A DNA stretch of 32,354 nt from a virus, in the IMG/VR virus record IMGVR_UViG_3300022821_000075, positions 1-32,354 of that record; one strand, written 5' to 3'. The notes beneath the pieces are model-generated. The model was given only the letters and a program-made list of their open reading frames with translations, ran no database searches and was not told where the DNA came from. Made by a program: the position numbers and the translations under genes. Positions 2,065 to 32,354 of this stretch are shown here, one piece after another. Position 1 is the stretch's first letter; every line of letters begins with the position of its first letter.

Positions 2065-2099
2065 GTGGGCCTGAGATCCGGTAAAACCAACCGAATCAA

Positions 2100-3578: not shown

Positions 3579-3584
3579 TACCCA

Positions 3585-4932: not shown

Positions 4933-4943
4933 CCCCTAATACA

Positions 4944-5360: not shown

Positions 5361-5396
5361 GTCATAACCTAGTTTCCCGAAAAACAGGAACCCCAA

Positions 5397-6038: not shown

Positions 6039-6039
6039 A

Positions 6040-6572: not shown

Positions 6573-6576
6573 TAAA

Positions 6577-8946: not shown

Positions 8947-11900
8947 TGGCGTGGGGCACAAAATACAGAGAGACGTTTGACACATTAGACGGTGTTCACT
9001 CTTACCAAATAGACTTCAAGTTCAAGGGTTACGGCGGGGGCATCACCGCGGTTGAACTCGCTCATCCGTTCTTGGTCCTCAAGTACGGCTCTGGAGGGGT
9101 TGCTGATCTGCTAAAATGGAATATGGCCTCTCAGGCAGAGGTTGTTGTTCACGATGATAGTTCAGGCACTTTCCGGACGGATATCTCTGAATCAGATGAG
9201 GATGAGGTAATAATTGAGATCGAACGAGATTCGGCCCTGTTTTGGGCAGGTTTCGTAAAATCCGAGATTCAGTCAAAACCCCTTAATGACACAGAGCGGA
9301 ATGTTACCGTTAGGGCATTGTGTGGAATAGACCTTTCAAAAGGTCGGGCCTACGATAATTCGGGGACTAACTACACCGGGCGTGAAAAACTATCCGTAGT
9401 CCTTTCAAGAGCATTGGCGAAGATCGGTGTTGATCTTGGGATCGATTCAAATAATTTTGCCTCGAACTGGTACCCGTTCCGGGACTCCTCAGATATCTCC
9501 GGAGACCCGCTTAATACGGTTGAACTAAATCAGAGTTGGTTATTAGCCGATACGGGAGCAACCTATTCGGCCTACACAGTAATGAAGGAAATCGCATCTC
9601 GTTTCGGAATGCGGGTGATGCAGGTCGGAGGAAAGTGGTTTGTTACTCAGTCCTACTTAACCCGGGGTGCATCCTACACGGTATATGAGTATGATGCCTC
9701 CGGAACGGCGGTGACGTCCGCTTCAATAGGAACCGTTACCCCTATCGTCGTTGGTTCAGGCGTGGCGGGCGCGAATGATATTGAGTTAACTGTTGATGGT
9801 GAAATCACAGGAGCCTCGGCACTACGCAAGTCCAAGACTAAATACATTCACGGAATACGGGACGAAATCCTCATTGAAAACGGTGATTTCGAGGATATCA
9901 CATCATCTGAACCTGATAACTGGACCGCATCAGCAGTTGGGGCGGGCGAGTCGTATGCGCGTGGACACAACTCAACTAATTCACTAGCCTTTGACTCGGT
10001 AGTCTACACCTCCGGCCCGGTTGCTAACCTTGCCACGAAAAACAGGTCTCAATCTGCCGGGTTTATAAATGCCGACACTCAAATGCAGTTGTCAGGTATG
10101 TTTCGCGCCCTCAAGATTGACGCAGAAGGAGATGGAACGTGGGTCAACTCACGCCTTTCCCGTCCTATGTTTTGGTCCCTGTCTCAGCAGGACCTATCGG
10201 GAGCTTGGCTTGCTTATGACGATACGGACGAAACGTGGAAATCCGTTTTATCGGGTGTTTACTACAAGAACAGGGTTGACGCGCTGCCTCATTCGTGGAA
10301 GTCGCTAAAGCGTATTGTTGCAGCCCCGGGGACACCGGGGAAAGTGTGGTTACACCTTTGGAACGGTGTCGACACCGTTGATCTTGGTTCATCATCGTAT
10401 GAGATTGATAAATTCCTTTGGGACCAAGTCGGCCTAACTCCTCTCCCGAATGGAGAGACTGTTACGAAAGGCATTGAAACGACTCTTGAGAACACAGTAG
10501 CAATCAATTCCAAAACCGACGATGGATACGAGTTCATCCTCGGTGATGGCCCGAGTGAAATACACATTTCCCGGCTAACGTTTTCGGACGGTGGTGTGGA
10601 TATACCAACATCAGGTTGGCAGTCCGGGGCTTACTCAGGAGGCTCGACTACCGGGAATTCTATTGACTACCTATGGAACAAGGAGAACCTGATTCAAGGG
10701 AGGACTATTCAGAAACGCCTCATTGGTACGCTCCGACTCAAGGGAACCTCAGACTACCTGCCTCATCAAGCCCTTTCTTATGACGGCAGCCAATACGCTT
10801 GCACCCATTACAGACTTGATGCCTACCGTAGAAAGATATCCGTTGACTGTACAGAAACTTTGGCAACGGCCTCGGTGACGGCTACCGGATGGACCGTTAT
10901 CCTCAAGGATGCGCTGAATATCGCCAACACGGTTACTTCTGATTTTACTACGTCTTTGGATAATGCATCATCCTTTGACAATATCGCAATCACTACGGCC
11001 CCTTATGCCATTGGGGAGATCAGCGAATTAGACGTTGAACCACTCGAGAAGGGACTCGAGTATGGATCGCTATTGGTAGTTATTCCCCCGGGCGGTGGGT
11101 TCATATCGGTCCGGCTTGATACGGCTGCTGCTGTTGGGGCTGAGACTCTTTCTATTGACCCTATCTACTTGTCTGAGGTACTCCGATATCCTGCCGGGAT
11201 AAAACTGACAGAGGCCGAGGTTCGATCAGCGTTTATAAAAACGCAAGAGTCCATTTCCTTACTCGTTGAAGGCGGTCCCGTTTGTACTGCCGGGGGAACG
11301 CTTGGATCAGGTGCAAGAACCTCTATGAGTGTGTCTGCAGTGACACAGGTTTTAAGATCAGGAGAAACGCTTACAATCGTTCCTGCTGACGGATCGGACC
11401 CCATCGAACTAGAATTGAGCGCGGACACGGCAATCGGTGACGTCTCTATCTCGTTCGTCTCAAATACGTTTGCGGTAACAATAGGTGATCCGCTTTATGG
11501 CGCCGGGAATGCAACGGGCGAACTCAGGGTTGAGTCGAACCGAATAACAGCCGAGATAACAAAAGAGGGCGAACAGTACGGACTCCTTTCTTCCGGGATA
11601 TCCTCAGATACGACGATTGGCATAAAAGCCCCAGGAATCGTTGGAGCCCTTAAAGTCGGCGATACGCTACTGCACCAACGGATATCTACGGGGCAGCAGA
11701 GTGTTTTGACTGTCGCTGCTGACGCATCAGCAACAGCAACGTCGATAACTGTTGATGCGAACTCCGTTGTAGGAGATGAGGATGATGCGCTTACGCCGGG
11801 GGCAATCGTCGCACTACGGCTTGGGTTTGACGGAATAGAAGTGGAAGGCCCGGCCCTTTACTCAACCAACTTTGACGGCACGTTCGACGCTTCTTGGAAT

Positions 11901-13643: not shown

Positions 13644-13978
13644 TGAAAAACGTAACACCACTTCCAAGACTTATCGGCGTAGTTGTTCAGATCGGGCCTT
13701 TTGATACCGACCTGACCGGGAAAACCGTTCGGGTATTTGCCGTAAATGATTCCGACTCAACCGATAAAACGGAAATATCGGATTCATTAGGGATTCCCGG
13801 GCAAGCGGTAGATGCCATGTATAGCCCGGTTTGCGACCTTTCCGGCCTAGCCTTGAGAACAGATTACAAACTCGTTTCATATACTGATACCGTTGGCGGG
13901 ATGCGAACAACTCTCATCCCGAACCCTGACACTCCACGCGACTTCTTATTTAACCTATTCGATCCTGATGGCAACTAA
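13643..13978 (+). CDS. Small virion-associated protein, unknown
   Basis: 111 residues, starting in the TAATG overlap with the hub gene. Beta-rich: LTGKTVRVFAVNDSDSTDK, LALRTDYKLVSYTDTVGGMRTTLIPN. No family recognised. The compact immunoglobulin-like composition and the location between two fibre genes suggest a tail-tip or fibre-accessory role. The next gene's ATG (13968) lies 11 nt inside its end. Confidence 0.5.
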   Translation: MKNVTPLPRLIGVVVQIGPFDTDLTGKTVRVFAVNDSDSTDKTEISDSLGIPGQAVDAMYSPVCDLSGLALRTDYKLVSYTDTVGGMRTTLIPNPDTPRDFLFNLFDPDGN

Positions 13979-14168
13979 TCAGAGAAATTCAACAGGGCGA
14001 GGCGCGGTCCGAATGGTAGTGCCGAGCGGACAGGCTAGGATGCTCGTTCCCCGAGGAGTAGTTACGATTAATGAAAACGTGACTGTCCGGACCTACCTCC
14101 TCTTAGATAACTTTTTAACCTTTCTCGTTGACGATGAAGGAACGGCCTTAACTGACAGGGTGACATAA
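13968..14168 (+). CDS. Small fibre-region protein, unknown
   Basis: 66 residues from the ATG at 13968, chosen because it overlaps the end of the previous gene and gives a sensible N-terminus (MATNQRNSTGRGAVRMVVP). The frame is open further upstream but that stretch is inside the preceding gene. Short beta strands (ARMLVPRGVVTINENVTVRTYLLLDNFLTFLVDD) are seen. Its stop overlaps the start of the long fibre gene (TAATG). It may be a fibre linker; no homolog recognised. Confidence 0.45.
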   Translation: MATNQRNSTGRGAVRMVVPSGQARMLVPRGVVTINENVTVRTYLLLDNFLTFLVDDEGTALTDRVT

Positions 14169-17100
14169 TGAGCGATCCACTTGTACTCGTAACGCTTGAT
14201 TCTAGGGATGAAGTTGTTGCTCCTGCCGATGGTGATTATCTAGGCTTGCAGGTTGCGGGCGTATGGAAGAAGGTGGCACTTTCTGTCCTCGCTCAGTACG
14301 TTGGCGATGAAGTAGAGTCTGACTACGCGAACACGGCATCCGTTGAGACCATTACTGGAATATGGTCCTACAACGTGGCGCCTGAGTTCAATGCCGGGGT
14401 TCGAATGGAGCAAGAATCCTCACCTCCTTCCGGGGTGGCAGGTTATTCAACCCTATATGTTAACGCTGCCGGGGCCTTGATCTCTATTGATGAGGCGGGG
14501 TCCTCTGAAACCGTTTCTTTTTTAGAAAGGGCTCAGAGTTTTACGGCAACTCAGACGTTCTCCGGAGTTGATATCAACGGCGGTAATATCGACGGGACAA
14601 TTATTGGTGCTGCTACGGCTGCTGCCGGTTCGTTCACAACGCTTGGAACGAGTGGGCTTGCTTCGCTTAATAGTCTATCACTTACAACCGTACTATCGGC
14701 TACCTACGGCGGTACAGGGCTAACGTCCATATCGACCCTTCTTAATTCAAACGTCACGCCAACCACTTTAGGCTTGGTGATCGGTACAAGCGTACAAGCC
14801 TACCACGCCACACTCGCGGCTGTTTCAGCAGGTACGTACACGGGCTCGACCTCTATTGTAACACTTGGCACAATAGCAACGGGCGCAATCCCTGCTTCAC
14901 TCGTCACAGCAGGCACGTTCGGCGCAGGGGCGTATGTCTTTCCGAGTACGTTGGCTAGTGGAACCCACACTATTTCGTCTGATTTGATTCTAGCAACGGG
15001 ATCAATAACTAGTGCAAGTGGAGCTATATCGTTTGGAAACGAGAATCTCACCACCACAGGCGTTGTCACTATTGGGGCGGACTCGACAAGTGTAAAGCTA
15101 AATATAATTGGCAATCGGAGTGATGTTGCGGGGGAAGGATTTGTCACCCTAACAGATGTATATAAATCGGCTTTCAGGTTGGACACTAGTAACAGGTTCA
15201 ACCTTGATATGTACAACGGCTCAACGTGGTATAATGCTTTTTCTGTTTCTACGATAGGCGCAGTCACATTCGCGGGCGCACTCTCAGGGATAACAACGCT
15301 TGGAACGAGTGGGTTGGCTACGCTCGCGTCCTTAACCGTAACGGGCGCGGTTATTCTGAAAGGGGCCACAATGTCCACCTTCATTGCCACGTTGATTGAT
15401 GACGCGACACAAGGTGACGCGCAGACCACGCTCGGAGTCGATCCGTCAGGAACGGACAATTCGACCGATGTAACTCTAGGCGGGTCACTTGATTACCTAA
15501 CCTTATCGGGTCAGGTTCTAACACGTAACGCGATTGTACTGACAACAGACGTTTCGGGTGTATTGCCCGTTGCGAATGGTGGAACGGCGTTAACGTCCAT
15601 TTCTACACTACTCAACTCGAACGTAACACCAACCACACTAAGCCTTGTGATCGGGGAAGATACACAAGCCTATTCATCCGTATTGGACGGTGTATCAGCA
15701 GGTACCTACACCATCCCCGCCGAAAGGGTAGATCCAGGTACGTTCCCAAGTGGGGCGTATGTATTTCAGGGCGCACTCTCAGGGATAACCGACCTCACCA
15801 TGTCGGGGGCGTTGGCACTTGGATCAGGCACAATAACCACTACGGGGGCGGTAGGAACGGGCGTCGCTACACACGGTACAGGTGCAGTCGTTCAAGTGTA
15901 TTCAGGTGTAACTTCGAGTACATTCTTACCACAGTTAATGGTTTTTGACGGTGCATTTAGTGGCGGAATACTCGTTAAGACAGACAGTACAACGGCGGCT
16001 AGGGGTGGACAAGTAACACTGGCAAGGTCAAATGGCTCAACAAATGGACTCGTCAACAATGGTGATGTATTAGGAGCAATTAACTTTGCAGGGGCAGACG
16101 GTGCAGATTACCGGAGCGTTGGGGCTTCGATAGTTGGTGTTGTGTCTGGCACGGCGGGCGTAAACGATATGCCCGCTTCTCTCAAGTTTTACACAACTCA
16201 AAGCGGTAACCAAAACCCCACACTTGCACTAACGATAGACGCGACACAAGTTTCCACGTTTGCGAGTACCGTAATAACTACGGCTTCTGGTGGGTTCAAA
16301 AGTGCAACCACTACGGCAAATGACAGAACACCGATTTGGCGCGTTGGTGATGCAGACGCATACGGATTCAGTTACTTCAGGGGAACGGCAAGTCTAGGTA
16401 CTGATGGTATCGGCTTTCATCTTGGCACAGCAACGGCAGCAGCTTCAATACTAAACATTATTCCAGCAGGAATAGTGGTGACGGGAACTGGTAGCTTTAC
16501 AGGCAACGTCCTCATCGGAACCACCACAGACACCTACGGGACGTTGCAGGTGAGTGGGGAGATGATGGCAGGTGATTCACTTTCTAACGCATTGTACACA
16601 AGTAGTGGGTCACTAAACGGGGCTTACGGCACAGACACTGATTCGGGCGCGTTGATATTTAATAACGTTGGCTATCAAAACGGCACGTCTAGGTTTAGAG
16701 ATTCTATATTCAAGGACGGGAAGAACACAACCGTAATGAGCATAGACGGCTCTGCCAAAGCCCTTACGATGGTAGACGGAGCCAACTTCGTTCTTGGTGG
16801 ATCGACTCTCGCTGCTTCTGCGACCAATACAATTCACGTTTACGATGGTACGGCCCCAACAGGGGCTATAACAAACGGTGCTTTACTTTGGTCGGAAGGA
16901 GGGGAAATGAAGGTTATGGACTCAGGGGCCAACACCACGACACTATCACCTCATAACTCCTCGCTACTCCCGGCAGGACACTTTTCCGAATTGATGGGAT
17001 GGGGTTACTACTCAACCAACTCGATTCTCGGATATGCGGTAAACGCTGATATCTCAAAAGCCCTGAGATACCTAGAGCAACTCTTGGGTGAGGATATTGT

Positions 17101-17284
17101 ACACCTCGGCAAGTGGAACGGATCAGGCTATGATATGGTCAAGGGACGTTCGCCTGAAAAAGGCCGGGTACAGGTTCTTGAAGAGGATAACGAGAAATTG
17201 CAAAAAGCTCTTTCTGAAATTGAGTTAGAATTTAGTACATTCAAGAAAAGCATTGAAGATCGCCTTATGGCAATCGGTGCTTAA
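14168..17284 (+). CDS. Long tail fibre protein
   Basis: 1038 residues. The N-terminus (LVLVTLDSRDEVVAPADGDYLGLQV) probably attaches to the tail. Residues ~130-900 are a Thr/Ser/Gly-rich shaft with recurring units, such as LTSISTLLNSNVTPTTL.LVIG and SAGTYT, each seen twice, plus two copies of the 21-nt string encoding TTLGTSG (14638 and 15294 regions). The last ~60 residues (GRVQVLEEDNEKLQKALSEIELEFSTFKKSIEDRL) form a coiled coil, probably for trimerisation. A preceding ADISKALRYLEQLLGEDIV segment is helical. It probably forms side or tip fibres for receptor recognition. Internal DNA repeats suggest module shuffling. Confidence 0.7.
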   Translation: MSDPLVLVTLDSRDEVVAPADGDYLGLQVAGVWKKVALSVLAQYVGDEVESDYANTASVETITGIWSYNVAPEFNAGVRMEQESSPPSGVAGYSTLYVNAAGALISIDEAGSSETVSFLERAQSFTATQTFSGVDINGGNIDGTIIGAATAAAGSFTTLGTSGLASLNSLSLTTVLSATYGGTGLTSISTLLNSNVTPTTLGLVIGTSVQAYHATLAAVSAGTYTGSTSIVTLGTIATGAIPASLVTAGTFGAGAYVFPSTLASGTHTISSDLILATGSITSASGAISFGNENLTTTGVVTIGADSTSVKLNIIGNRSDVAGEGFVTLTDVYKSAFRLDTSNRFNLDMYNGSTWYNAFSVSTIGAVTFAGALSGITTLGTSGLATLASLTVTGAVILKGATMSTFIATLIDDATQGDAQTTLGVDPSGTDNSTDVTLGGSLDYLTLSGQVLTRNAIVLTTDVSGVLPVANGGTALTSISTLLNSNVTPTTLSLVIGEDTQAYSSVLDGVSAGTYTIPAERVDPGTFPSGAYVFQGALSGITDLTMSGALALGSGTITTTGAVGTGVATHGTGAVVQVYSGVTSSTFLPQLMVFDGAFSGGILVKTDSTTAARGGQVTLARSNGSTNGLVNNGDVLGAINFAGADGADYRSVGASIVGVVSGTAGVNDMPASLKFYTTQSGNQNPTLALTIDATQVSTFASTVITTASGGFKSATTTANDRTPIWRVGDADAYGFSYFRGTASLGTDGIGFHLGTATAAASILNIIPAGIVVTGTGSFTGNVLIGTTTDTYGTLQVSGEMMAGDSLSNALYTSSGSLNGAYGTDTDSGALIFNNVGYQNGTSRFRDSIFKDGKNTTVMSIDGSAKALTMVDGANFVLGGSTLAASATNTIHVYDGTAPTGAITNGALLWSEGGEMKVMDSGANTTTLSPHNSSLLPAGHFSELMGWGYYSTNSILGYAVNADISKALRYLEQLLGEDIVHLGKWNGSGYDMVKGRSPEKGRVQVLEEDNEKLQKALSEIELEFSTFKKSIEDRLMAIGA

Positions 17285-17316
17285 ATAACGCATCATTTAA
17301 AACACAGACCAAGAAA

Positions 17317-17781
17317 ATGGCAACCCCATCTCGATTTAAAGTCGCTGCAAGCGCAACCCCAACGGCAATGACCGGGCTAAATGGCTCGGTAGTTGTTCGG
17401 CTTAACCCAAAACCAAGAACAGTTAGTACCCCTCGCAGACGTCAAATGACGGACAGCAACGGCGTACCTGTTTGGATTATGGAGGACACGAACCTCAAGG
17501 CTTCTAAGACGCAACCAGTAGGATCTATCAAAAGGATGGAGACCGTCAACGAGGACGTGCCTGTGACCCGTGACGGGAAAGCCGTTATGGATAATGGCTC
17601 CGTGAACCTCAGTATTTCCGTAGTAGATGAAAAAGGACACCGTATCGACGGGGGCCGAATTCCACAGGTTACACTCGACACGCTTTCAGTCGAGTCACAG
17701 GCTCTTTGGGAAGCTGCTTTTGAAGCAACCCGGAACGAGGTGTTGGCAGGATTTAGTGACTTAGAGGTTAAAGAGAACTAG
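17317..17781 (+). CDS. Unknown late protein
   Basis: 154 residues, starting after AAGAAAATGG. It has a polar, Pro/Arg-rich N-terminal third (LNPKPRTVSTPRRRQMTDSNG), a beta-like middle (NGSVNLSISVVDEKGHRIDGG) and a helical end (SQALWEAAFEATRNEVLAGFSDLE). It follows the fibre gene and precedes a strong hairpin, so it is the last gene of the structural block. I recognise no family. It may be a virion protein or fibre chaperone; no catalytic motif is visible. Confidence 0.45.
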   Translation: MATPSRFKVAASATPTAMTGLNGSVVVRLNPKPRTVSTPRRRQMTDSNGVPVWIMEDTNLKASKTQPVGSIKRMETVNEDVPVTRDGKAVMDNGSVNLSISVVDEKGHRIDGGRIPQVTLDTLSVESQALWEAAFEATRNEVLAGFSDLEVKEN

Positions 17782-17787
17782 ACAAAA

Positions 17788-17823
17788 AGCCCCCGGGCAG
17801 GAGGTTATCCATACCCGGGGGCT
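17788..17823. terminator. Hairpin terminator, U-tract on the - strand
   Basis: AGCCCCCGGG (17788-17797) and CCCGGGGGCT (17814-17823) form a perfect 10-bp stem with a 16-nt loop. On the - strand the stem is followed by TTTTTG, a good intrinsic terminator. On the + strand it is followed only by TACG. It separates the structural block from the lysis block. Confidence 0.7.
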
Positions 17824-17853
17824 TACGTTCTGCTTTCACTCATAAGAACGTAA
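17823..17853. promoter_or_regulatory. TTACGTTC/GAACGTAA inverted repeat
   Basis: TTACGTTC (17823-17830) and GAACGTAA (17846-17853) are perfect 8-nt arms around a 15-nt spacer, starting at the last base of the terminator stem. Five bases after it, ATG at 17858 opens an 8-codon frame (MTGYAIRF) ending 8 nt before the next gene's ATG. It could be an operator or an RNA control element for the lysis block. Confidence 0.35.
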
Positions 17854-17892
17854 AACAATGACTGGTTACGCCATTCGCTTCTAAAAAAACCA

Positions 17893-18195
17893 ATGTCAGA
17901 GTACACAAGAGCCTTTGCAAATATGCCCGGATTATGGAAAACGCTCCTTGTAGCGTTCTCTTTGATCGGGATCGGCTTCACGGTCGGGGGGGCCACGTAT
18001 TCACTTACTGAGATCCCACAACAGGTCAAGGCGAATACAGCGGCTATTATTGAAAACACACGGCGCATAGAGGCGTCAGGATCCAAGCTAGACAGAATCT
18101 TATCAGAGGTGGTGCTTGGGAATTGTCTCGCTGAAAAGTTAGCTCAGGGACTTCCTTATCAAATGTGTCAATACAAGAAGGTTGAGGACCGATAA
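17893..18195 (+). CDS. Membrane-anchored coiled-coil protein, lysis region
   Basis: 100 residues. After a short cytoplasmic N-terminus a hydrophobic segment (LLVAFSLIGIGFTVGGATYSL, ~18-38) predicts one membrane span. The rest is a heptad-like stretch (IPQQVKANTAAIIENTRRIEASGSKLDRIL) and a short tail with two cysteines. It resembles small single-TM coil proteins near phage lysis genes, which may be holin modulators or tail-linked. Start context AAAAAAACCAATG has no SD. Function not assigned. Confidence 0.5.
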   Translation: MSEYTRAFANMPGLWKTLLVAFSLIGIGFTVGGATYSLTEIPQQVKANTAAIIENTRRIEASGSKLDRILSEVVLGNCLAEKLAQGLPYQMCQYKKVEDR

Positions 18196-18210
18196 CTTGC
18201 ACCGCTCATA

Positions 18211-18257
18211 AATCGTTGTTACATTCGTTGGTCACTTTCACGCTACCCTAAACGATT
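18211..18257. promoter_or_regulatory. AATCGTT/AACGATT inverted repeat before gene start
   Basis: AATCGTT (18211-18217) and AACGATT (18251-18257) are perfect arms 33 nt apart, the right arm ending immediately before the ATG at 18258. A looped-out leader or operator is possible. Arms this short can arise by chance. Confidence 0.25.
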
Positions 18258-18821
18258 ATGTCACAGGTTGGAATAGAGATCCTCACTACCTACGGTGTCG
18301 CTCTCGCTGTACACACTTCTCTTGAATTGATTGGCAAGCTTGATCATATGCCATCAGACCTCTCCTACGCCGGGACACGAATCCGGCCCCGCCTCAAGCC
18401 AATGTCGGAAGAGATGGCAGACCTTGACCGGGATCTATACCGGAAACACGGCAAGAAAAACCACGAAGGAAACATATATGTTGATCGCAATGGTCACGTT
18501 GTTTTCGAGAACCCCGAGGCAGAGGACGCATTCTTGGCAGAGAAGCGGGCCAAACTAAATGATCCGTTCACGTTTGTTACTTATTCCTGTAAAGAGTCTG
18601 TTATTGACGAACTCAAGGCGGGCAAGTACGAAGGTGGGTTTGGATTCCTGGACGCGCTGATCGGTACGGTTATCCTGACGGCAGAAGAGGAGACAGAACT
18701 CAAGACCTCTGCCGAAACACGCAAGCGTGAATCAAAGGAGTTGGATATGGCTGCTGTTGTCTCTGACGAAAAGGAGACTCCTGTAACAGAAACGCCAAAA
18801 GGCAAAGCTAAAAAAGGTTGA
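18258..18821 (+). CDS. Unknown late protein
   Basis: 187 residues. The N-terminal ~30 residues are mildly hydrophobic (EILTTYGVALAVHTSLELIGKL). A charged middle contains GNIYVDRNGHVVFENPEAEDAFLAEKRAKLNDPF. A possible helix GFGFLDALIGTVILTAEEETEL precedes a Lys/Glu/Pro-rich, disordered C-terminus ending KGKAKKG. It is not a recognised family. It sits between lysis-region membrane genes but shows no membrane anchor or enzyme motif itself. Confidence 0.45.
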   Translation: MSQVGIEILTTYGVALAVHTSLELIGKLDHMPSDLSYAGTRIRPRLKPMSEEMADLDRDLYRKHGKKNHEGNIYVDRNGHVVFENPEAEDAFLAEKRAKLNDPFTFVTYSCKESVIDELKAGKYEGGFGFLDALIGTVILTAEEETELKTSAETRKRESKELDMAAVVSDEKETPVTETPKGKAKKG

Positions 18822-18826
18822 TTCCA

Positions 18827-19099
18827 ATGCTAAAACTGAAATTCAATGGCGTGAATATCGCCCTTCTTGTTGTAGCCGTTGCCACCGTATGGGTTACTTT
18901 CAACTTCTTTATCGAGTTCTCCGGGTTCGCGGTTGTGATAGCTAAAGCAAGCATTGGGCTCACGCTTGCTGCGGTGGTAGACAATGTGATTCTTAGAGCA
19001 TTCAACACAGTTGAGGAAATCAAGAATGGAAATGTCACCTATGCGACTGTTTACTTTGGCTTTATGTTTATCATTGGCCTCGCTTTGCTCTCGGGCTAA
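18827..19099 (+). CDS. Holin candidate, three membrane segments
   Basis: 90 residues from ATG 18827 (a TTG at 18818 is also in frame). Three hydrophobic segments are visible: NIALLVVAVATVWVTFNFFI (~9-28), GFAVVIAKASIGLTLAAVV (~34-52) and YATVYFGFMFIIGLALLSG (~72-90). Size, topology and position just before the endolysin gene fit a holin that opens the inner membrane. The endolysin start lies ~60 nt inside its 3' end in another frame. Because the endolysin has its own signal peptide, this may act as a pinholin-type timer. Confidence 0.6.
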   Translation: MLKLKFNGVNIALLVVAVATVWVTFNFFIEFSGFAVVIAKASIGLTLAAVVDNVILRAFNTVEEIKNGNVTYATVYFGFMFIIGLALLSG

Positions 19100-19586
19100 T
19101 GCCCAAGCCCACCTCGATACTGCACGTGTCTACATTGGTGTGCAGGAGTTCGGCAACAATGCAGGTCCGGATATTGAAAGATTCCTTGCCTCCGTTGGAC
19201 TCAGGAAGGGGAACCCCTACTGTGCTGCCTTTGTCTCGTTCTGCCTCAATCAAGCAGGAGGAATCGAGTTCCCGACTATTAGAACAGCCCTTGCTTCGCG
19301 TTTTATAACTCGAGGATCTATCAAGGCGAGTTCTGTCCTCCGGGGGGTTCACCCCCTCCCGGGGTCTATTGTTATTTGGAAAAAGGGAAACACAATCTTC
19401 GGACACGCCGGACTCGTTCTTGATTGGAGTGGTAAATGTGGGCAGACGATTGAGGCCAACACCTCCTCTGGAGTGTATGGATCTCAGCGTGACGGTGACG
19501 GGGTTTGGATTAGGGAAAGGTGCATCACCCCCGGGTCGTATTTCAGGATCGTTTCTTTTACCCCAGTTAGATATGTTCAAAAATAA
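19041..19586 (+). CDS. Sec-exported cysteine endolysin (CHAP/NlpC-like)
   Basis: 181 residues from ATG 19041 (ATG at 19032 possible). The N-terminus MRLFTLALCLSLASLCSRANA is a signal peptide with probable cleavage at ANA. The enzyme part has VYIGVQEFGNNAGPDIERFL, then NPYCAAFVSFCLNQAGG with the catalytic Cys at ~61, PGSIVIW and GHAGLVLDWSG with the His at ~122, and a final Asn/Glu region (IEANTSSG). This is the layout of CHAP/NlpC-type amidase or endopeptidase phage lysins, which cleave peptidoglycan. Export would place it in the periplasm before lysis. It overlaps the holin and the next gene. Confidence 0.75.
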   Translation: MRLFTLALCLSLASLCSRANAQAHLDTARVYIGVQEFGNNAGPDIERFLASVGLRKGNPYCAAFVSFCLNQAGGIEFPTIRTALASRFITRGSIKASSVLRGVHPLPGSIVIWKKGNTIFGHAGLVLDWSGKCGQTIEANTSSGVYGSQRDGDGVWIRERCITPGSYFRIVSFTPVRYVQK

Positions 19587-19953
19587 AACAGCCCTTGCCC
19601 TCGAGGTACTTGGGCTTGTCTTGGTCGTTCTTGCCGTGCTTCTTGCTGCAAGCTCTCACGTTAGCCGTATGGAGACGCAATACGCAAACGACCTACGGGA
19701 AGCAAAATCACGGATAAGCGATTCCGAGGTTATCGTGGACAGCCTCCGGGCGCAATCTGATGCCTCTGCCCTTGTCATTGATTCCCTCGAGGTTGTTGCT
19801 GCGTTTCACCGCCTTGAATCGGCCGATTTTAGAAACCGCCTCCTGATCCTTCTTGCAGAGATTGAGGAGACCAAAATCAATACGAGATATGAAGGTCCTG
19901 ATAGTTCTCTTGCTTCTGATGCTCTCCGCGCTTTCCGTCAACGCTCAAACTGA
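19573..19953 (+). CDS. Rz-like inner-membrane spanin subunit candidate
   Basis: 126 residues from ATG 19573, 14 nt inside the endolysin gene. One N-terminal membrane span (LALEVLGLVLVVLAVLLAASS, ~8-28) is followed by a periplasmic coiled coil (METQYANDLREAKSRISDSEVIVDSLRAQ...). This is the type II layout of lambda Rz. The 3' third encodes, in another frame, the start of the next gene (19889), reproducing the nested Rz/Rz1 architecture. It would link inner and outer membranes in the last step of Gram-negative lysis. Confidence 0.6.
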   Translation: MFKNKTALALEVLGLVLVVLAVLLAASSHVSRMETQYANDLREAKSRISDSEVIVDSLRAQSDASALVIDSLEVVAAFHRLESADFRNRLLILLAEIEETKINTRYEGPDSSLASDALRAFRQRSN

Positions 19954-20338
19954 GCAGGCCACCCGCGACACGGTATTGGTTATGTCTTATTCCGGGGTCC
20001 CCGGGTTTTGGGTAACAAGGCCAGTTATCGAGGACTACCACGCTGTCCGAACGGCTATCATACCCGGCCTTGAGCGGATTATCCTCACGTATTCAGGGCT
20101 TGCTATTTCTGACTCCCTCACGATCATTGCTCAGTCAAGGCAGATCGAACAACTCGTTTTAAGGGTTGGCACCGGGGACAGGATCTCAAAAGAACTCTCC
20201 GGGCAGGTTAGCGAGTGGCGAACGCTCAATGGTAAAACCCTCAAAATGTATCGCCGGGAGAAGCTGCTCCGGAAAATACTGACAGGATCGGCCCCTTTAC
20301 TGATCGCCGGAGGTATTCTTATTGGTGCTAGTCTATAA
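19889..20338 (+). CDS. Nested exported coil protein, spanin partner candidate
   Basis: 149 residues from ATG 19889, inside the Rz-like gene. MKVLIVLLLLMLSALSVNA is a signal peptide with probable cleavage before QTEQ. Helical segments (LTIIAQSRQIEQLVLRVGTGDRIS, QVSEWRTLNGKTLKMYRREKLLRKIL) follow, and the last ~20 residues (GSAPLLIAGGILIGASL) are hydrophobic. There is no lipobox Cys, so it is not a classical Rz1 lipoprotein; the C-terminal hydrophobic end could anchor it instead. The role is inferred from nesting and topology. The stop is followed directly by the hairpin at 20341. Confidence 0.5.
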   Translation: MKVLIVLLLLMLSALSVNAQTEQATRDTVLVMSYSGVPGFWVTRPVIEDYHAVRTAIIPGLERIILTYSGLAISDSLTIIAQSRQIEQLVLRVGTGDRISKELSGQVSEWRTLNGKTLKMYRREKLLRKILTGSAPLLIAGGILIGASL

Positions 20339-22251: not shown

Positions 22252-24657
22252 TTATATCTCGATTTTTTCGGGTAGCTGCAAGACTTTTTGACGGTCCGGG
22301 GTTACAACGATAATGTTATCGAAGTGGGTAGAAACATTTCCTAGCAAGGTAATGAGTCGGGCCGTGTTTTTGGGCGAAAGGCTGTCGAATGCTTCGTCTA
22401 AGAATATCGTCCCGTAGGAGTACCCTGACCGGAGCGATATCCACCGGGCAAGAGCAAGCCTGATAATCGTTGAGAATATCCTCCTCTGCCCCCCTGAATA
22501 CTGGTATACGTCCCGCTCCCCGGTATGGCTTGATATTAGTATTGAGATTTCCTCCCTAGTGGTTCCGTCTTGGTTTTCCTTGACTGTCTCAATCCTAAGA
22601 TCGTTCGCCCCTCCTGTGGCCTGTTGAAGCATTGTTGATGCCATCATCTCGAATGGCTTAATTGCAGACTCTATGAGGATAGACTGAACGCCTGACCGAC
22701 CGAATGCCCTTTCAATGATGGCGAGTCGGCCCTCATTATCCTGTTCGACCTTCATTTTTTCGTTTAGGATTCCGACCTTTTCAGCAACGTATCGGAGGGA
22801 CTTGATTTCCATTGCGTGGTTATTCGCCCCGGACTGCTGAGTCATTAAAAGAGTTTGTAGTTCCGTTTTTTGATCGCGGGTTTTTCGAGCAAGCAAAACC
22901 AACCGATCGTGTTCTTCTATTAGGTTCTCATCCGGTTCGTGGGCCTCGAGTAGATCCTGTTTGTTTAGGATATCCCGCTTTATGAATGCCAGTTCCTCTT
23001 CCATTTTAGGTACTGATTCTGCTGCGCTTTTAGCATCGTCCAGTCCTGACGCTTGCCTTGATAGGTCCATATACAGATCGCGTTCTGCCTCGAGTTGCTC
23101 CCGAGTGTACTCCGTGTCTCCGGGCTTAACGGACTCAAGTACCCCGCGCAAAGTGTTAACCTTTGAGGTTATAATATCTCTGCGCCCCGCGTTCTCTGTT
23201 TCTGACTTTAGGCTCTTTTGTAGGCCCATAATCTGATCGGACCACAACCTCATCTCCGTGTTCTTTTGTTCAATCTCATCGAGAACCTCGGCTAATCCCG
23301 GAGGGGTTTGTTGCATAAGTTCAGCCCGCTTAACCTCTAAGGCTTTGATTCGTGCCGTAGTGGGTGCGTTCTTGCTCCTGATGCTCTCTATTTCCCGTTC
23401 AATCGCCGCGGTATCTATCGGGGATGGTATACGCTCTAATTCAGCTTCGGCAGCCTCGAGAGTCGTACGGGCCTTGTAGACCTCCATCTTTGCGTCGAAA
23501 AATGCTTGCATTTCCCTTGACCGCTCGAGTGTATCATCGGCCTTCTTCCTGATAGCCTCGAGCTCAGGGATCCTTACTGATATGTTTTTGAGCCGTTCGA
23601 CTTCTGCCCGGAACGTCTCCCCGGATGCAATCAGTTTTTCTAGTTGTACTTGTGCCTCCGTGTACTTGGAGGCTGCTCCCATCTTGGCGGTCAATTCTGA
23701 AAGGGAGTCGAGTATTTTATCCTCTTCTTTTTTAATCCTCGAGATATCACCATTTAGCGTGGCGATCTGTTGGTTTACGATCTCCTCTTTTTCAGACTCG
23801 GAAATGATCCGTTCAGAGATATCGTGATTAGGGTCTTGGTCCCTGATCTGACTACCTATCAGCGAGGCTCGGGTGTTTGATACTTGTTTCTGAGACTTCG
23901 CAGACTTGGCGATTTCCCCGAGGCTTGAAACGTTGATAAAGTCCCCGATCAGGTCCGACCGCTTTGATGGCAGTAATTCGCAAAGATCCTTGTCTGATCG
24001 GTAGCAGGAGAACCAAGTGGCCTCCGCTAACTCCCTTGTACCGATGTGGGTCTTGACCCAAAAGTCAAAGTCTCGTTGTTTAGGGCCTTTGAATGGCGGG
24101 TTTTCTATGAAGCCCGGCCCCTCCAAGACAACGGCAGTATTGTCTTTCGTCTTGCCTGACGCTGAAACGCTGACGATCCTTACGATCTTAAAAACCTTTC
24201 CTTTGATCTCTACGACTGTTTCAACTCGGCCTTGACCGTTACCATTCTCTGTAAGGGCCTTGTAGATGTTGCCCTTGTATGAAGGGAAGTCCCCGAATAT
24301 GGCTGCGAAAGGAGCCTCAATCATGAACGTCTTGCCCGCTCCGTTCTCGGCAATGACAGGGGTAACGGATCGGTAATCACTCCATGGAGTAGATAACGAT
24401 TTGTGTGGTCCGAAACCTTGAATGTAAGAGGATAGAATTCTCATTATACGGCTACCATTCTCTGTAAGGGCCTTGTAGATGTTGCCCTTGTATGAAGGGA
24501 AGCCCCCGAATATGGCTGCGAAAGGAGCCCCAATGATAGACGTCTTGCCCGCTCCGTTCTCGGCAATGACAGGGGTAACGGATGGGTAATCACTCCATTG
24601 AGTAGATAACGATTTGTGTGGTCCGAAACCTTGAATGTAAGAGGATAGAATTCTCAT
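22252..24657 (-). CDS. SbcC/Rad50-like (gp46-type) ATPase with duplicated N-terminus
   Basis: 801 residues; ATG 24657 overlaps the SbcD-like stop (TAATG). It works with SbcD as an ATP-driven DNA-end nuclease in phage recombination. Residues 1-71 and 72-142 are near-identical copies, each with a P-loop (IAENGAGKT); the second keeps IEAPF, the first has IGAPF. Long coiled-coil arms run ~250-640. Only two Cys are present and no CxxC, so there is no zinc hook. The C-terminus has the YSGGQRR signature, Walker B TIFLDEAFDSL and VVTPD where relatives usually have a His. Translation from ATG 24444 would give an ordinary 730-residue protein. Confidence 0.85.
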   Translation of the reverse strand: MRILSSYIQGFGPHKSLSTQWSDYPSVTPVIAENGAGKTSIIGAPFAAIFGGFPSYKGNIYKALTENGSRIMRILSSYIQGFGPHKSLSTPWSDYRSVTPVIAENGAGKTFMIEAPFAAIFGDFPSYKGNIYKALTENGNGQGRVETVVEIKGKVFKIVRIVSVSASGKTKDNTAVVLEGPGFIENPPFKGPKQRDFDFWVKTHIGTRELAEATWFSCYRSDKDLCELLPSKRSDLIGDFINVSSLGEIAKSAKSQKQVSNTRASLIGSQIRDQDPNHDISERIISESEKEEIVNQQIATLNGDISRIKKEEDKILDSLSELTAKMGAASKYTEAQVQLEKLIASGETFRAEVERLKNISVRIPELEAIRKKADDTLERSREMQAFFDAKMEVYKARTTLEAAEAELERIPSPIDTAAIEREIESIRSKNAPTTARIKALEVKRAELMQQTPPGLAEVLDEIEQKNTEMRLWSDQIMGLQKSLKSETENAGRRDIITSKVNTLRGVLESVKPGDTEYTREQLEAERDLYMDLSRQASGLDDAKSAAESVPKMEEELAFIKRDILNKQDLLEAHEPDENLIEEHDRLVLLARKTRDQKTELQTLLMTQQSGANNHAMEIKSLRYVAEKVGILNEKMKVEQDNEGRLAIIERAFGRSGVQSILIESAIKPFEMMASTMLQQATGGANDLRIETVKENQDGTTREEISILISSHTGERDVYQYSGGQRRIFSTIIRLALARWISLRSGYSYGTIFLDEAFDSLSPKNTARLITLLGNVSTHFDNIIVVTPDRQKVLQLPEKIEI

Positions 24658-24669
24658 TATACGGCTACC
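24240..24669 (-). repeat. 213-bp in-frame tandem duplication in the SbcC-like gene
   Basis: Positions 24240-24456 match 24453-24669 with offset 213 nt. I count seven mismatches over ~217 positions. The unit spans the SbcD-stop/SbcC-start junction (GTAGCCGTATAATG), the N-terminal strand and the Walker A loop. The reading frame stays open across both copies (213 = 71 codons). Confidence 0.9.
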
Positions 24670-25700: not shown

Positions 25701-25908
25701 TCGTGTCTCTCGGTTCTGATAGGTGTCCGTATGAACGGAGTTCACGGACGGCCTGATTTAGTGAATCCCTTTGGCCTATTGTTGGTCGGTGTAGGCTTTC
25801 GAGGTGTTGAACTTGGGTAAACAGGAATAAACATCGAGCATCGTTAATGTCGAAAGGCCCCCTGTCTACCCGGGGTTGATTCAATACGGTACTGATGGAA
25901 GTTTTCAT
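25597..25908 (-). CDS. Small unknown protein overlapping the SbcD-like gene
   Basis: 103 residues, ATG 25908 overlapping the XRE gene stop (TAATG), so translation coupling is likely. The N-terminal ~65 residues (ISTVLNQPRVDRGPFDINDARCLFLFTQVQHLESL...) look protein-like. The last ~35 (Arg-rich) lie inside the SbcD-like gene in another frame, a 104-nt overlap that is unusually long. Either the overlap is real or the annotated 3' part is not functional. No family recognised. Confidence 0.4.
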   Translation of the reverse strand: MKTSISTVLNQPRVDRGPFDINDARCLFLFTQVQHLESLHRPTIGQRDSLNQAVRELRSYGHLSEPRDTNDRSIRRYSRPGQGLARILKAVSDRLDGGGRSRV

Positions 25909-26099
25909 TATTCGCTTTTTTCCCTGTTTTCAGTTGCAACGATAAATCCGAGGATTATCACGGCAGCCTTTGAGATTGGAGCGCGGTCGTTTTCGATCTC
26001 AGAGATTGTTCTGTCCCGCTCGTAACCGAGCATTTTAGCGAACGCTTTCTGAGAGAATCCAAGACGTTTCCTGATTGCCCTGACTTCTTTGCCTGACAT
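25908..26099 (-). CDS. XRE/Cro-type helix-turn-helix regulator
   Basis: 63 residues. GKEVRAIRKRLGFSQKAFAKMLGYERDRTISEIENDRAPISKAAVIILGFI is a complete single-domain HTH_3 fold: helix 1 RAIRKRLG, turn helices SQKAFAKMLG and RTISEIENDR, then the hydrophobic core helix. It probably represses by DNA binding and, given the ATTGAG-TT-CTCAAT palindrome immediately upstream, represses itself and the recombination unit it heads. It is coupled to the next gene by TAATG. The gene is too short for any effector domain. Confidence 0.75.
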   Translation of the reverse strand: MSGKEVRAIRKRLGFSQKAFAKMLGYERDRTISEIENDRAPISKAAVIILGFIVATENREKSE

Positions 26100-26114: not shown

Positions 26115-26154
26115 ATTGAGTTCTCAATATAATGGATTAAAGCGGAATAACGCA
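26115..26154 (-). promoter_or_regulatory. Promoter and palindromic operator of the XRE regulator
   Basis: ATTGAG-TT-CTCAAT (26115-26128) is a perfect 6+6 inverted repeat. On the - strand TATATT (26131-26126) overlaps it and fits a -10 box. TTGCGT (26155-26150 region) stands ~18 nt upstream as a weak -35. The start codon of the HTH gene is 16 nt downstream of the palindrome, the usual geometry for an autorepressor. Confidence 0.5.
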
Positions 26155-26162
26155 AACCGGAA

Positions 26163-26489
26163 CTAGATGAGTTCGGTAAGTGTCCGAGCGAGACTGTCTA
26201 CTTGAGACTTGATGTTGTCTATGCTCTCGGATAATATTTGAAGGATCACCTTTTTTGTGAGGGCCTTTATCAACTCGAGGTCTCGCCACGTAAAACTATC
26301 CACCGCCTTGAGCGCCCTTTTCAACGGTAGTAAATCCGGTGTTCGTCCATAACTGGAAACCGAGTCTTTGGCGTAAACGGTGGAGTAATCCTTTGGCTTG
26401 ATTTCCCAATACTGGTTGGATATATGGATATCCCCGCCTGTTTTTTCTACTCGCTGAGTTTCAACTATGATGGATGGGTACTTTTTTAT
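26163..26489 (-). CDS. Unknown early protein with apparent ATA start
   Basis: 108 codons with no ATG, GTG or TTG near the 5' end. The frame is bounded upstream by an in-frame TAG at 26499-26501, the stop of the previous gene. The leader GAGACCGAAA sits exactly where ATG is found in neighbouring genes (GAGACCGGAA-ATG at 27771), but the codon is ATA (26489-26487). The translation is normal: IKKYPSIIVETQRVEKTGG, IHISNQYWEIKPKDYSTVY, LKRALKAVDSFTWRDLELIKAL, IDNIKSQVDSLARTLTELI (helical end). Family not recognised. Either ATA initiates or this is a start-lost gene. Confidence 0.6.
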   Translation of the reverse strand: MKKYPSIIVETQRVEKTGGDIHISNQYWEIKPKDYSTVYAKDSVSSYGRTPDLLPLKRALKAVDSFTWRDLELIKALTKKVILQILSESIDNIKSQVDSLARTLTELI

Positions 26490-27135: not shown

Positions 27136-27178
27136 TTTCTGTCTCGGTCTATTGTTTATTACCTGCCTCCCCCTATAC

Positions 27179-27219
27179 TACGGTACGGTTTACGGAAGGT
27201 TCCGCAAAGCGGAAGAAAA
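27179..27219 (-). promoter_or_regulatory. ECF-like promoter repeat R1
   Basis: Read on the - strand, GGAAC (27203-27199), exactly 16 nt, then CGTA (27182-27179), preceded by TTCTTCCGCTTTGC. It lies 43 nt before the start of the zinc-ribbon gene. The layout equals the GGAAC-N16-CGT form of many ECF-sigma promoters, and the same sequence recurs as R2 and R3. Confidence 0.6.
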
Positions 27220-27230
27220 ACAAGAATGCT

Positions 27231-27440
27231 TTAAAATCCCGGGTCCTGATATGCGCTAGAATCGCCCTGTCTCCAACGCTCGATGGTAGCATTGATTTGA
27301 TAAGCAAGTCCGTCTACTATGCGCTTGAGCATCCAGTCCTCCTCGTAATCCGGTAGTAAACGAATGGCCTTGAGCGCCCCGAGGTCCAAGGATAGCTCGT
27401 TGACTAACTGGTTTTTCATTCTGAATCCGGTGATTTTCAT
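27231..27440 (-). CDS. Small helical unknown protein
   Basis: 69 residues from ATG 27440, 4 nt after the previous stop; longer in-frame versions would overlap that gene. MKITGFRMKNQLVNELSLDLGALKAIRLLPDYEEDWMLKRIVDGLAYQINATIERWRQ suggests two helices. No motif recognised. Unlike most early genes here it has AGGACT, not GAGAC, before the ATG. Confidence 0.5.
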   Translation of the reverse strand: MKITGFRMKNQLVNELSLDLGALKAIRLLPDYEEDWMLKRIVDGLAYQINATIERWRQGDSSAYQDPGF

Positions 27441-27444
27441 AGTC

Positions 27445-27771
27445 CTAAAAGTTGTAGTCGTGAAAGCGAACGGGATGATCTGAAATGCTGTACCTGTCTC
27501 CGCTTGGGTCTCTCCATTTTCCATCTTTATGCAGACGTATCTCGATGGTGCTGTTTGCCGGGGCCTGAAAATATTTGTATTCCTGATTATCGTTGTTGAC
27601 GCAAAACCCGAGGAACCCGCCCGCCTTAATGTCGGGGAACCATCCCTCTACTAGCCTTGAGCCCATTTCCCGAATGATTAGCTTTTTATCCGTCCTAGCC
27701 TCAATGACTTCGAATGGTCGAATATCTGAGTGCATTATTAGGTTGGCGAATTTTGGTGTAGGTGTTTCCAT
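27445..27771 (-). CDS. Unknown early protein
   Basis: 108 residues, first gene after repeat R2; GAGACCGGAA precedes the ATG. The core (FEVIEARTDKKLIIREMGSRLVEGWFPDIKAGGFLGFCVNNDNQEYKYF) has a beta-strand pattern, with KWRDPSGDRYSISDHPVRFHDYNF at the end. The regular strand layout resembles small phage 'DUF' proteins of unknown role; I cannot name the family. Confidence 0.55.
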   Translation of the reverse strand: METPTPKFANLIMHSDIRPFEVIEARTDKKLIIREMGSRLVEGWFPDIKAGGFLGFCVNNDNQEYKYFQAPANSTIEIRLHKDGKWRDPSGDRYSISDHPVRFHDYNF

Positions 27772-27809
27772 TTCCGGTCTCTTAATTGGTAGAAATAATC
27801 TACCCCTTA

Positions 27810-27850
27810 CACGGTACGGTTTACGGAAGGTTCCTGAAAACGGAAGAAAG
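27810..27850 (-). promoter_or_regulatory. ECF-like promoter repeat R2
   Basis: On the - strand GGAAC (27834-27830), 16 nt, CGTG (27813-27810), preceded by TTCTTCCGTTTTCA. It lies 38 nt upstream of the 27771 start. It is identical to R1 from GGAACC through ACCGTACCGT apart from the last base of the -10 box. Confidence 0.6.
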
Positions 27851-27869
27851 GTGGTAATAAAATATGCCT

Positions 27870-27911
27870 AAAACGAGAAAAGCCCCGGGAATTGCTCCCC
27901 GAGGCCGTTTT
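27870..27911 (-). terminator. Bidirectional-looking intrinsic terminator
   Basis: GCC-C-CGGG (27882-27889) pairs with CCCG-A-GGC (27898-27905) around an 8-nt loop, flanked by AAAACG and CGTTTT. On the - strand the stem is followed by CTTTTCTCGTTTT, which ends transcription of the gene at 27930-28652 before repeat R2. Confidence 0.65.
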
Positions 27912-27929
27912 AAAAGGATAAAAAAAGTT

Positions 27930-28652
27930 TTAGAACCCGATCCGTTCAGCTACTAATAGTTGAATTTTCAACATTTCCTCAATATCCTCGACCGTTTCTG
28001 CGAAGTTTGATTTCAACCTATCTAGCGTGGTCTCTGGCTCGGTCATAGCCTTTGGGGTCTCGCCGGATAAAGCAAAGATCCGGAGGTGATTGGCGAGCTT
28101 TTCGAGGGAAACAAACTCATCCCCTGTAATGCCGAGGCTCCAAGCGTTCATCGTGTCGAAAAACTTCCATTGATCGTAATACCTGCCATCAGGGGTAATA
28201 AAGGATACCCCGTTGATAATATTGGCCCGCCAAGCCCGGCGCAACAGCATTGGGAGAACGAACTTGTGCAGGTTGTGGCTAGTAACCTTTGTCATTGCTC
28301 CGGCTCGTAAAAGATCAAGAACAGCAACAAGGAGATCCTTCTCTTCTTGGAAAAAGGAAAAAGTGGACGGCCCCTCCACCTCATCCGTAGCACAGCCGTC
28401 TACTGCGCTGTTTAGAATAAAGTGATGGGGTGTTTTTCCCGGCTCATCCTGTGCGACCAAAGAGACCATAACGATCTCGGCTGCAAGCGCATCAAACGGA
28501 GCCTTGTTTTCAAGAAACTCCTCACGCTTTTTTTGGAGGTACGCGTCAATCTTGTCTTGGTCCTTGTAGTTTCCGGGGACCTTGTAGTCGTAAATAAAAT
28601 CCATCGCCCGGTCGTGGGGTGTGGTTTGAATTGAAATAGCTAACTTGCTCAT
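27930..28652 (-). CDS. DnaQ-fold 3'-5' exonuclease homolog, active site degraded
   Basis: 240 residues. GNYKDQDKIDAYLQKKREEFLENKAPFDALAAEIVMVSLV and VTSHNLHKFVLPMLLRRAW follow the phage RNase H-like 3'-5' exonuclease pattern (usually DIET..., GNxKDPxKI..., HNxxxFDxPFLxRRA). Here the N-terminal DIET position reads SIQT and the FD of motif II reads FV, so two or more metal-binding acids are gone. A final EDIEEMLKIQLL may retain motif III. The protein probably binds DNA ends or a partner instead of cutting. It forms a single-gene unit between R3 and a terminator. Alternative: a divergent, differently folded protein. Confidence 0.55.
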   Translation of the reverse strand: MSKLAISIQTTPHDRAMDFIYDYKVPGNYKDQDKIDAYLQKKREEFLENKAPFDALAAEIVMVSLVAQDEPGKTPHHFILNSAVDGCATDEVEGPSTFSFFQEEKDLLVAVLDLLRAGAMTKVTSHNLHKFVLPMLLRRAWRANIINGVSFITPDGRYYDQWKFFDTMNAWSLGITGDEFVSLEKLANHLRIFALSGETPKAMTEPETTLDRLKSNFAETVEDIEEMLKIQLLVAERIGF

Positions 28653-28690
28653 CGGTCTCTTTATTTAAGTGTTCTTGGGGCCGTCCTACA

Positions 28691-28921
28691 TTACGGTACG
28701 TTCTGCGTAAGGTTCCGGATAACGGTAGGCGCGGGTTTCTTTTTTACCTTTCGTTCATAGGTGATCTTTACGGAATGAACGGTGTTTTTGCCTTGCCTGA
28801 TCCGCTCAATGCTGTGCTTCGTAAAGGAGCGGTCAATCATTATTGAATGATATTCTGCAAGCTGCTCCTCGAACGTGGCATATATCGTGATCCGTTCAAT
28901 CACCTCGCGTCTCTTTATCAT
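28691..28921 (-). CDS. Small basic unknown protein
   Basis: 76 residues; ATGA overlap with the upstream gene. Basic and mostly helical (IKRREVIERITIYATFEEQLAEYHSIMIDRSFTKHSIERIRQ) with a Lys-rich strand (VKITYERKVKKKPAP). No family recognised. Its last 13 codons double as promoter-like repeat R3 of the next unit. Confidence 0.5.
   Translation of the reverse strand: MIKRREVIERITIYATFEEQLAEYHSIMIDRSFTKHSIERIRQGKNTVHSVKITYERKVKKKPAPTVIRNLTQNVP
28692..28728 (-). promoter_or_regulatory. ECF-like promoter repeat R3
   Basis: On the - strand GGAAC (28716-28712), 16 nt, CGTA (28695-28692), preceded by CCTACCGTTATCC. It lies 39 nt before the 28652 start and is embedded in the last codons of the upstream gene (28691-28921), so coding constraint may explain its divergent middle. 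Confidence 0.6.

Positions 28922-31375: not shown

Positions 31376-31403
<28 letters not shown>
31120..31403 (-). CDS. Small unknown early protein
   Basis: 94 residues from ATG 31403, with GAGAC 4 nt upstream; a TTG at 31416 is in frame but less likely. TYEEAKAKCHVRSGIYRVSDPTKTYTEDDLIKSHPALRDIN is followed by a C-terminus rich in Pro, Asn and Asp (NDWEEYDPRDQPDCSAHNE). It overlaps the previous gene by 28 nt. The middle (RVGKTAPNVYWKNHTIPLD) resembles short Trp/His peptides in phage early proteins, but I name no family. Confidence 0.5.
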
Positions 31404-31985
<582 letters not shown>

Positions 31986-32005
<20 letters not shown>

Positions 32006-32330
32006 CGGGAGCCTCGGTTTTTAGGCTGTCATTAAACTGAATAAGCTCTTTGTATAGCGACTCGGGGATTTCTTCCCAACGGTGTCCGTCCCAGTTTTTT
32101 ATCGACCAATAAAAAAGCCCCTTCTTCTTCTTAGCGGTAAGCATTCCGTAATAATTCCCAATATTTCCTATTTCTTTCTTCATTTCCTCTCTTCCCGTAC
32201 TAGGGGTGGTTATTGCTTTTTCTTGTTGGATCTGTTTTTGGATCTTCTTTCTTCGGAGCTCCCTTCGCCAGTTGTACAGAATTTTATTAAAACGATACTC
32301 GGATAGGCGTTCTTCGTCTGTCCTCTTCAT
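31986..32330 (-). CDS. Small basic unknown phage protein
   Basis: 114 residues, GGGGGAGGG before the ATG (SD-like). The basic helical N-terminus (LYNWRRELRRKKIQKQIQQEK) and a TTPSTGREEM linker, like the TPTPSGE linkers nearby, precede GNYYGMLTAKKKKGLFYWSIKNWDGHRWEEIPESLYKELIQFND. This C-terminal segment resembles small phage proteins ('YYGxL..K..GxFYWSIxNxDG..WEEIP'). Role unknown. It overlaps the alanine-repeat gene by 20 nt. The window ends 24 nt later. Confidence 0.5.
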
Positions 32331-32354
32331 CCCTCCCCCTGCGTAACCGCTTGG

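Follow-up and report, generated by a model that had tools for sequence, protein, structure and literature searches.

Three transcription units on the minus strand of an unclassified viral record are preceded by the same short element, GGAAC followed after 16 nt by CGTA or CGTG. The initial annotation took it for an early promoter read by an ECF sigma factor borrowed from the host, and the question raised by this locus is whether such a factor, another polymerase or something other than a promoter stands behind the repetition. The record is a 32,354-base IMG/VR sequence, analysed over its whole length and referred to below as the window. The element is indeed present on the minus strand at 27179-27203 (R1), 27810-27834 (R2) and 28692-28716 (R3), at 43, 38 and 39 nt from the start codons at 27135, 27771 and 28652, respectively, in agreement with the 38-43 nt given originally. 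As also described, each site is preceded by CCGYTWT. These three are the only matches to GGAAC-N16-CGTR in the window, while 100 shuffled versions of it yielded 0.48 matches on average and two at most.

The window is without a close named phage. Neighbouring IMG numbers come from Ace Lake, Antarctica, which is therefore a possible origin of the sample. A pattern scan for the element led to two further contigs, L002 and L003, which overlap its ends: positions 1-778 of L002 correspond to window positions 778-1 at 99.9% identity, and positions 1-127 of L003 to window positions 32228-32354 at 100%. L002 and L003 share ∼8.2 kb, in which they differ at eight positions once the first 68 nt are set aside, and the three sequences close into a circular map of ∼44.9 kb. 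The coat protein is P22-like and 52-54% identical to the capsids of Vibrio Mardecavirus. The plus strand carries late genes. The minus strand carries genes for the replication initiator, VRR-NUC, SbcCD-like and exonuclease-like proteins and many small orphans, and from this gene content we infer that they are early. No family match to a sigma factor or an RNA polymerase was obtained among the 59 phage proteins scanned. In addition, we found no integrase or CI-like gene in the phage and saw no restriction-modification genes.

Relatives were sought via the exonuclease-like gene, the terminase, the ParB-like protein and the capsid protein. The best capsid relative had 63% identity, and Vibrio Mardecavirus 52%. 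Among the fetched loci, no homologues of the early and replication genes were found, only genes on the terminase and portal side matched, and none of these loci had a homologous early region. In IMG/VR, both exact and relaxed scans returned the element only on contigs of the same phage, and its full form was absent from a scan of 84,980 prokaryote species genomes. Contigs L008-L010 had single chance matches inside coding sequence and no further copies.

The 5' end of the SbcC-like gene contains a 213-bp tandem duplication (window 24235-24660, 96%), which repeats an N-terminal segment in frame. An Imm5-like protein (window 31376-32005, minus strand) has a long alanine-rich tract built of 9-nt and 12-nt repeats. 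Near the terminase gene, L002 carries a QueE-like radical SAM gene and two genes with ParB_N domains (7001-7753, 5054-5716 and 6460-6996), which perhaps have a role in DNA base modification. The late structural genes on the plus strand (window 1300-20338), including the major capsid gene, are mostly without Shine-Dalgarno sequences, and several early genes have GAGG or GGAGG; the sparse Shine-Dalgarno sequences of the late genes hint at a possible host with weak use of this signal.

Alignment of the copies demonstrates that conservation extends over a 36-bp block (roughly CTTCCGYTTTNCGGAACCTTMCGYANAMCGTACCGT) and is not confined to two short boxes. A fourth copy, R4 (GGAACCTTACGTATACCGTACCGTC), is located on the early strand about 41 nt before an ATG (L002:9548, plus strand, which is the same site as L003:3863, minus strand). 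GGAAC and CGT at a distance of 16 nt are retained in all four copies, and the spacer between them is invariant at 12 of its 16 positions. R4 reads CGTC, and CGT is followed by A, G, A and C in R1-R4, respectively, so that only CGT is invariant. The similarity stops sharply after CGT, with nothing comparable outside the block except for an AGAGAC(C)-like motif, which all four leaders carry 29-34 nt 3' of the block, just ahead of the start codon. All four blocks are on the early strand, each placed 38-44 nt ahead of the gene that opens a unit, and the block occurs at no other place; a position-matrix scan of the whole ∼44.9-kb genome gave no fifth full copy. The R3 block overlaps the last codons of the ORF at 28691-28921. 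This means that, should this ORF be a gene, the block has been retained despite having to code as well. The sites, their spacing and their position were thus given correctly in the initial annotation, and the element was drawn too narrowly, leaving out the 36-bp block, the fourth copy and the shared leader motif. Coordinates are given in the table.

Table. Features of the early region in window coordinates (those on contig L002 carry its name).
Feature	Position	Strand	Details
R1 block	27180..27215	-	D1 27200-27214 (TTCCGCTTTGCGGAA); D2 27183-27197 (TTCCGTAAACCGTAC); -35-like GGAACC 27198-27203
R1 predicted -10, TAGTAT	27175..27180	-	register test
AGACCG motif, R1 leader	27145..27150	-	
R2 block	27811..27846	-	D1 27831-27845 (TTCCGTTTTCAGGAA); D2 27814-27828; -35-like GGAACC 27829-27834
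R2 predicted -10, TGTAAG (weak)	27806..27811	-	register test
GAGACCG motif, R2 leader	27775..27781	-	
Terminator-like hairpin	27881..27906	-	end of R3 unit, just upstream of R2; 11 pairs, 7 GC, T-rich tail
R3 block	28693..28728	-	D1 28713-28727 (TACCGTTATCCGGAA); D2 28696-28710 (TTACGCAGAACGTAC); -35-like GGAACC 28711-28716
R3 predicted -10, TAATGT (weak)	28688..28693	-	register test
GAGACCG motif, R3 leader	28653..28659	-	
63-aa HTH_3 protein (XRE/Cro-size), candidate regulator	25908..26099	-	coded in R1 unit
Predicted HTH-gene promoter, TTGCGT-N18-TATATT	26126..26155	-	half-site copy TTCCGCTTTA in spacer
Operator-like dyad TTCCGGTTTGCGTTA before HTH gene	26148..26162	.	third best unseen site genome-wide
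Intragenic perfect dyad TTACGCAGAACGTAA	26967..26981	.	14/15 identical to R3 D2; inside first gene of R1 unit
Predicted replication-gene promoter, TTGC[AG]T-N16-19-TATATT	L002:7817-7845		operator-like site in spacer

The block is composed of two tandem 15-bp dyads, D1 and D2, with a centre-to-centre distance of 17 bp. D1 has the form TTCCG-N5-CGGAA and is perfect in R1 and R4, with one mismatch in R2 and R3. D2 begins 17 bp after D1, within the spacer, and is a weaker dyad with related half-sites (TTMCG...CGTAC). The GGAAC of the original finding is the right half of D1 (GGAA) plus one linker base. Two invariant parts, the CC linker and the CGT that follows D2, belong to neither dyad core.

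Similar dyads occur elsewhere in the genome. We derived a symmetric matrix from the four D1 sequences only and scanned all 44.9 kb, leaving the training blocks out of the ranking. The best three unseen sites were L002:7824 (16.4 bits), L002:7788 (16.2 bits) and window position 26148 (13.6 bits), with null top scores averaging 14.6, 12.7 and 11.7. The first two lie within the 212-bp gap before the replication-initiator gene at L002:7966, and the third within the 63-bp gap before the gene of the 63-aa HTH_3 protein. Intergenic DNA makes up 4.3% of the map, and among 2000 control motifs, obtained by permuting and complementing the D1 columns, none placed its three top sites all in intergenic DNA, and ten placed two there. 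D2 itself scores 11.2 bits under the D1-only matrix in R1 and R2 and falls outside the top 22 in R3 and R4. In the promoter of the HTH gene, the dyad is directly followed by the half-site copy (26133-26147), which repeats the first ten bases of the D1 of R4. These observations are clear internal evidence for one putative operator type common to promoters across the genome.

The pattern TTGC[AG]T-N16-19-TATATT has exactly two matches in the genome, one before the HTH gene and one before the replication gene. Each has its spacer filled by an operator-like site, which stops 1 nt short of the -10 box. In R1-R4, the end of D2 is 2 nt ahead of TAGTAT, TGTAAG, TAATGT and TCTAAT, respectively. Because scanning for the plain sigma70 consensus gave no promoter at any of R1-R4, their -10 boxes were tested by register. 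The tails after CCG average to TATWAT, in register with the two TATATT promoters. Compared with positions 2-6 of TATAAT, the tails have 12 matches out of 20 (p=0.003 at this register, 0.03 over any of nine offsets); the first T was left out of the test. The counterpart of the -35 box, GGAACC, matches TTGACA poorly. The hairpin between the R3 unit and R2 means that the R2 unit needs a promoter in 110 nt that are mostly taken by R2. A sigma70 -10 at TAGTAT or TAATGT combined with an operator repeat, which the initial annotation had kept as its alternative, is closer to these data than its main proposal. Upstream of the HTH gene, window positions 26163-26489 (minus strand) hold a 108-codon open frame after a AGAGACCG leader; its first codon is ATA (AGAGACCGAAA-ATA-AAA-AAG) instead of ATG, GTG or TTG, and may be a rare start codon or an altered start.

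The 63-aa protein matches Pfam HTH_3 (1.7e-8) and a PHROG of transcriptional regulators (1.8e-8). Its single-sequence structure model has a mean pLDDT of 76, and the nearest solved folds in a Foldseek search are the XRE proteins HigA2, C.BclI, C.Esp1396I and P22 c2, with E-values of 0.005 or more, which back the fold class and no specific relative. This is a small XRE-fold protein with the same operator type at its own promoter, as in autoregulated operators of the C-protein or Cro type. Judging from this site, which is all that ties the protein to the dyads, it is most likely the binder of the D1/D2-type operators.

We conclude, with a probability of about 0.6, that R1-R4 are early promoters for the housekeeping (sigma70-type) polymerase of the host, on which an XRE-type regulator of the phage acts through tandem operators. 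That these early promoter-operators form a family is real; the family is phage-specific and ordinary in kind. What the sequence itself shows is the blocks with their dyads, the return of the motif in two promoter regions, the common register and the terminator ahead of R2; from these we infer promoter activity, the type of sigma, the identity of the binding protein and the sign of regulation, as follows. The sigma70-type RNA polymerase of the host would read R1-R4 as promoters of the early units, with D1 spanning and preceding the poor -35 box GGAACC, and D2 filling the 17-bp spacer before the degenerate TATAAT box. The 63-aa HTH_3 protein, coded in the R1 unit, would bind D1 and D2 as dimers. 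Occupation of D2, the second site, at about -22, would block the polymerase, and D1 alone, centred near -39, may aid the polymerase at the weak -35 box, as C proteins and lambda CI do. Via the same kind of site in their promoters, the HTH gene and the replication-initiator gene would also come under control of the HTH protein. The earlier observation that the element recurs beyond chance holds, and there is good support for reading it as an early promoter combined with an operator.

A host ECF sigma factor borrowed for the early genes, reading GGAAC as -35 and CGT as -10 with the dyads as a second layer, is unlikely. The best evidence for it is the retention of GGAAC-N16-CGT in all four copies; moreover, the dyads leave the invariant CC linker and CGT unexplained, and GGAAC-N16-CGTT is a real EcfG motif with a flexible -10 (PMC7083833). 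However, the likeness to EcfG/RpoE-type promoters is one of layout. In the described EcfG regulon, spacers differ between promoters and -10 boxes are flexible (PMC7083833), whereas the phage block has a nearly invariant spacer where a free one is expected, a variable base after an invariant CGT, and a dyad that explains GGAA. This same half of the dyad recurs before the replication gene and the HTH_3 gene without an ECF-like layout, and the TATAAT-like box has the register seen in the two consensus-like promoters. Finally, no ECF factor was found among the 59 phage proteins. The spacer, the dyad, the register and the variable base weigh against the ECF part of the initial annotation. Still less probable is a combination in which a host ECF factor reads the early units through -35 and -10 boxes fused to the tandem operators of a repressor from the phage. 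If true, early expression would need two inputs, host signalling of envelope or general stress and a switch of the phage.

Plasmid Rep proteins repress their own genes via iteron-like operators. By analogy, the replication initiator of the phage (L002:7966-8772) could bind the dyads as iteron-like sites and also repress its own promoter. Two sites directly before its gene agree with this, as do the HTH_36 domain of the protein and its matches to replication-initiator PHROGs. Still, the sites are single promoter-linked blocks spread across the early units and the HTH gene, at a fixed distance to start codons, with no origin-like cluster, and we consider this improbable. An RNA-level or start-associated element, that is, a leader structure or translation control in place of a promoter, would fit the fixed distance to start codons and the common AGAGAC(C) motif near them, and D1 could fold as an RNA hairpin. 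Against it, R2 follows a terminator and its unit needs a promoter there, related dyads lie within the spacers of two consensus-like promoters, and the changes in the D1 loop and stem show no compensatory pairing in the four copies, which makes it very unlikely. Finally, it is hardly credible that the block is the promoter of a polymerase or sigma factor of the phage itself that has diverged beyond recognition: the long, strongly conserved block and the purine-rich start region of R1-R3 do resemble promoters of single-subunit RNA polymerases in general appearance, and proteins of 1565 and 1038 aa are without PHROG matches, but the genes of these two proteins sit among tail genes, the 59 proteins include no RNA polymerase or sigma family, and the first G run does not stand at a constant distance from the block (6, 4 and 6 nt in R1-R3, with none close in R4).

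Sigma70-type promoters under tandem operators have parallels in several known systems. Lambdoid phages have a Cro/CI arrangement, in which a Cro-size HTH protein acts through several short dyad operators over early promoters. Similarly, the phage described here has an HTH protein of Cro size and dyad operators at its own gene and in the divergent region before the replication gene. Unlike lambdoid phages, it has no CI-like or integrase gene that we could find, and its operators occur at six promoters or more.

Tandem operators (OL/OR) also occur with the C proteins of type II restriction-modification systems. That of C.Esp1396I, a small XRE-fold protein, is 35 bp long and lies at the promoter of the protein; its two quasi-symmetric sites adjoin each other, the upstream one serving activation and the second one repression (PMC4041747). 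The phage blocks have two tandem sites as well, at about -39 and about -22, together with a small XRE protein whose model resembles C.BclI and C.Esp1396I. On the other hand, this protein scores as HTH_3 and is not identified as a C protein, restriction-modification genes were not seen in the phage, and the operators differ in sequence, with a centre-to-centre spacing of 17 bp here.

The nearest described element is the ESAS of cluster K mycobacteriophages such as TM4 and Adephagia, an intergenic element of ∼46-47 bp with putative -35 and -10 boxes 17-18 bp apart (PMC3203893, PMC11373665). An imperfect inverted repeat underlies this pair, the element stands ahead of selected genes, and a second short motif, SAS, is found at the start codon; Adephagia has seven ESAS copies with SigA-like boxes, and repressor control has been suggested (PMC3203893, PMC11373665). 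Like ESAS, the block described here recurs ahead of several units and combines a -35/-10 pair with an overlapping inverted repeat, the -35 box being weak here, and a second conserved motif, AGAGAC(C)-like, is present at the start codon in four of four leaders. The likeness is one of anatomy, as the two have no sequence in common, and we do not claim common descent. ESAS contains one inverted repeat of 15-17 bp with an internal spacer, whereas the phage block has two tandem 15-bp dyads; SAS reads GGGATAGGAGCCC, while the leader motif here is AGAGACC; and the hosts of ESAS phages are mycobacteria. Together with ESAS, our observations suggest that phages have reached the design of a promoter, an inverted-repeat operator and a start-codon motif more than once.

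A reading confined to short boxes can take a tandem operator for an ECF promoter. For this unclassified phage lineage, the outcome is a testable map of early control, comprising six predicted promoters, one operator type and one candidate regulator.
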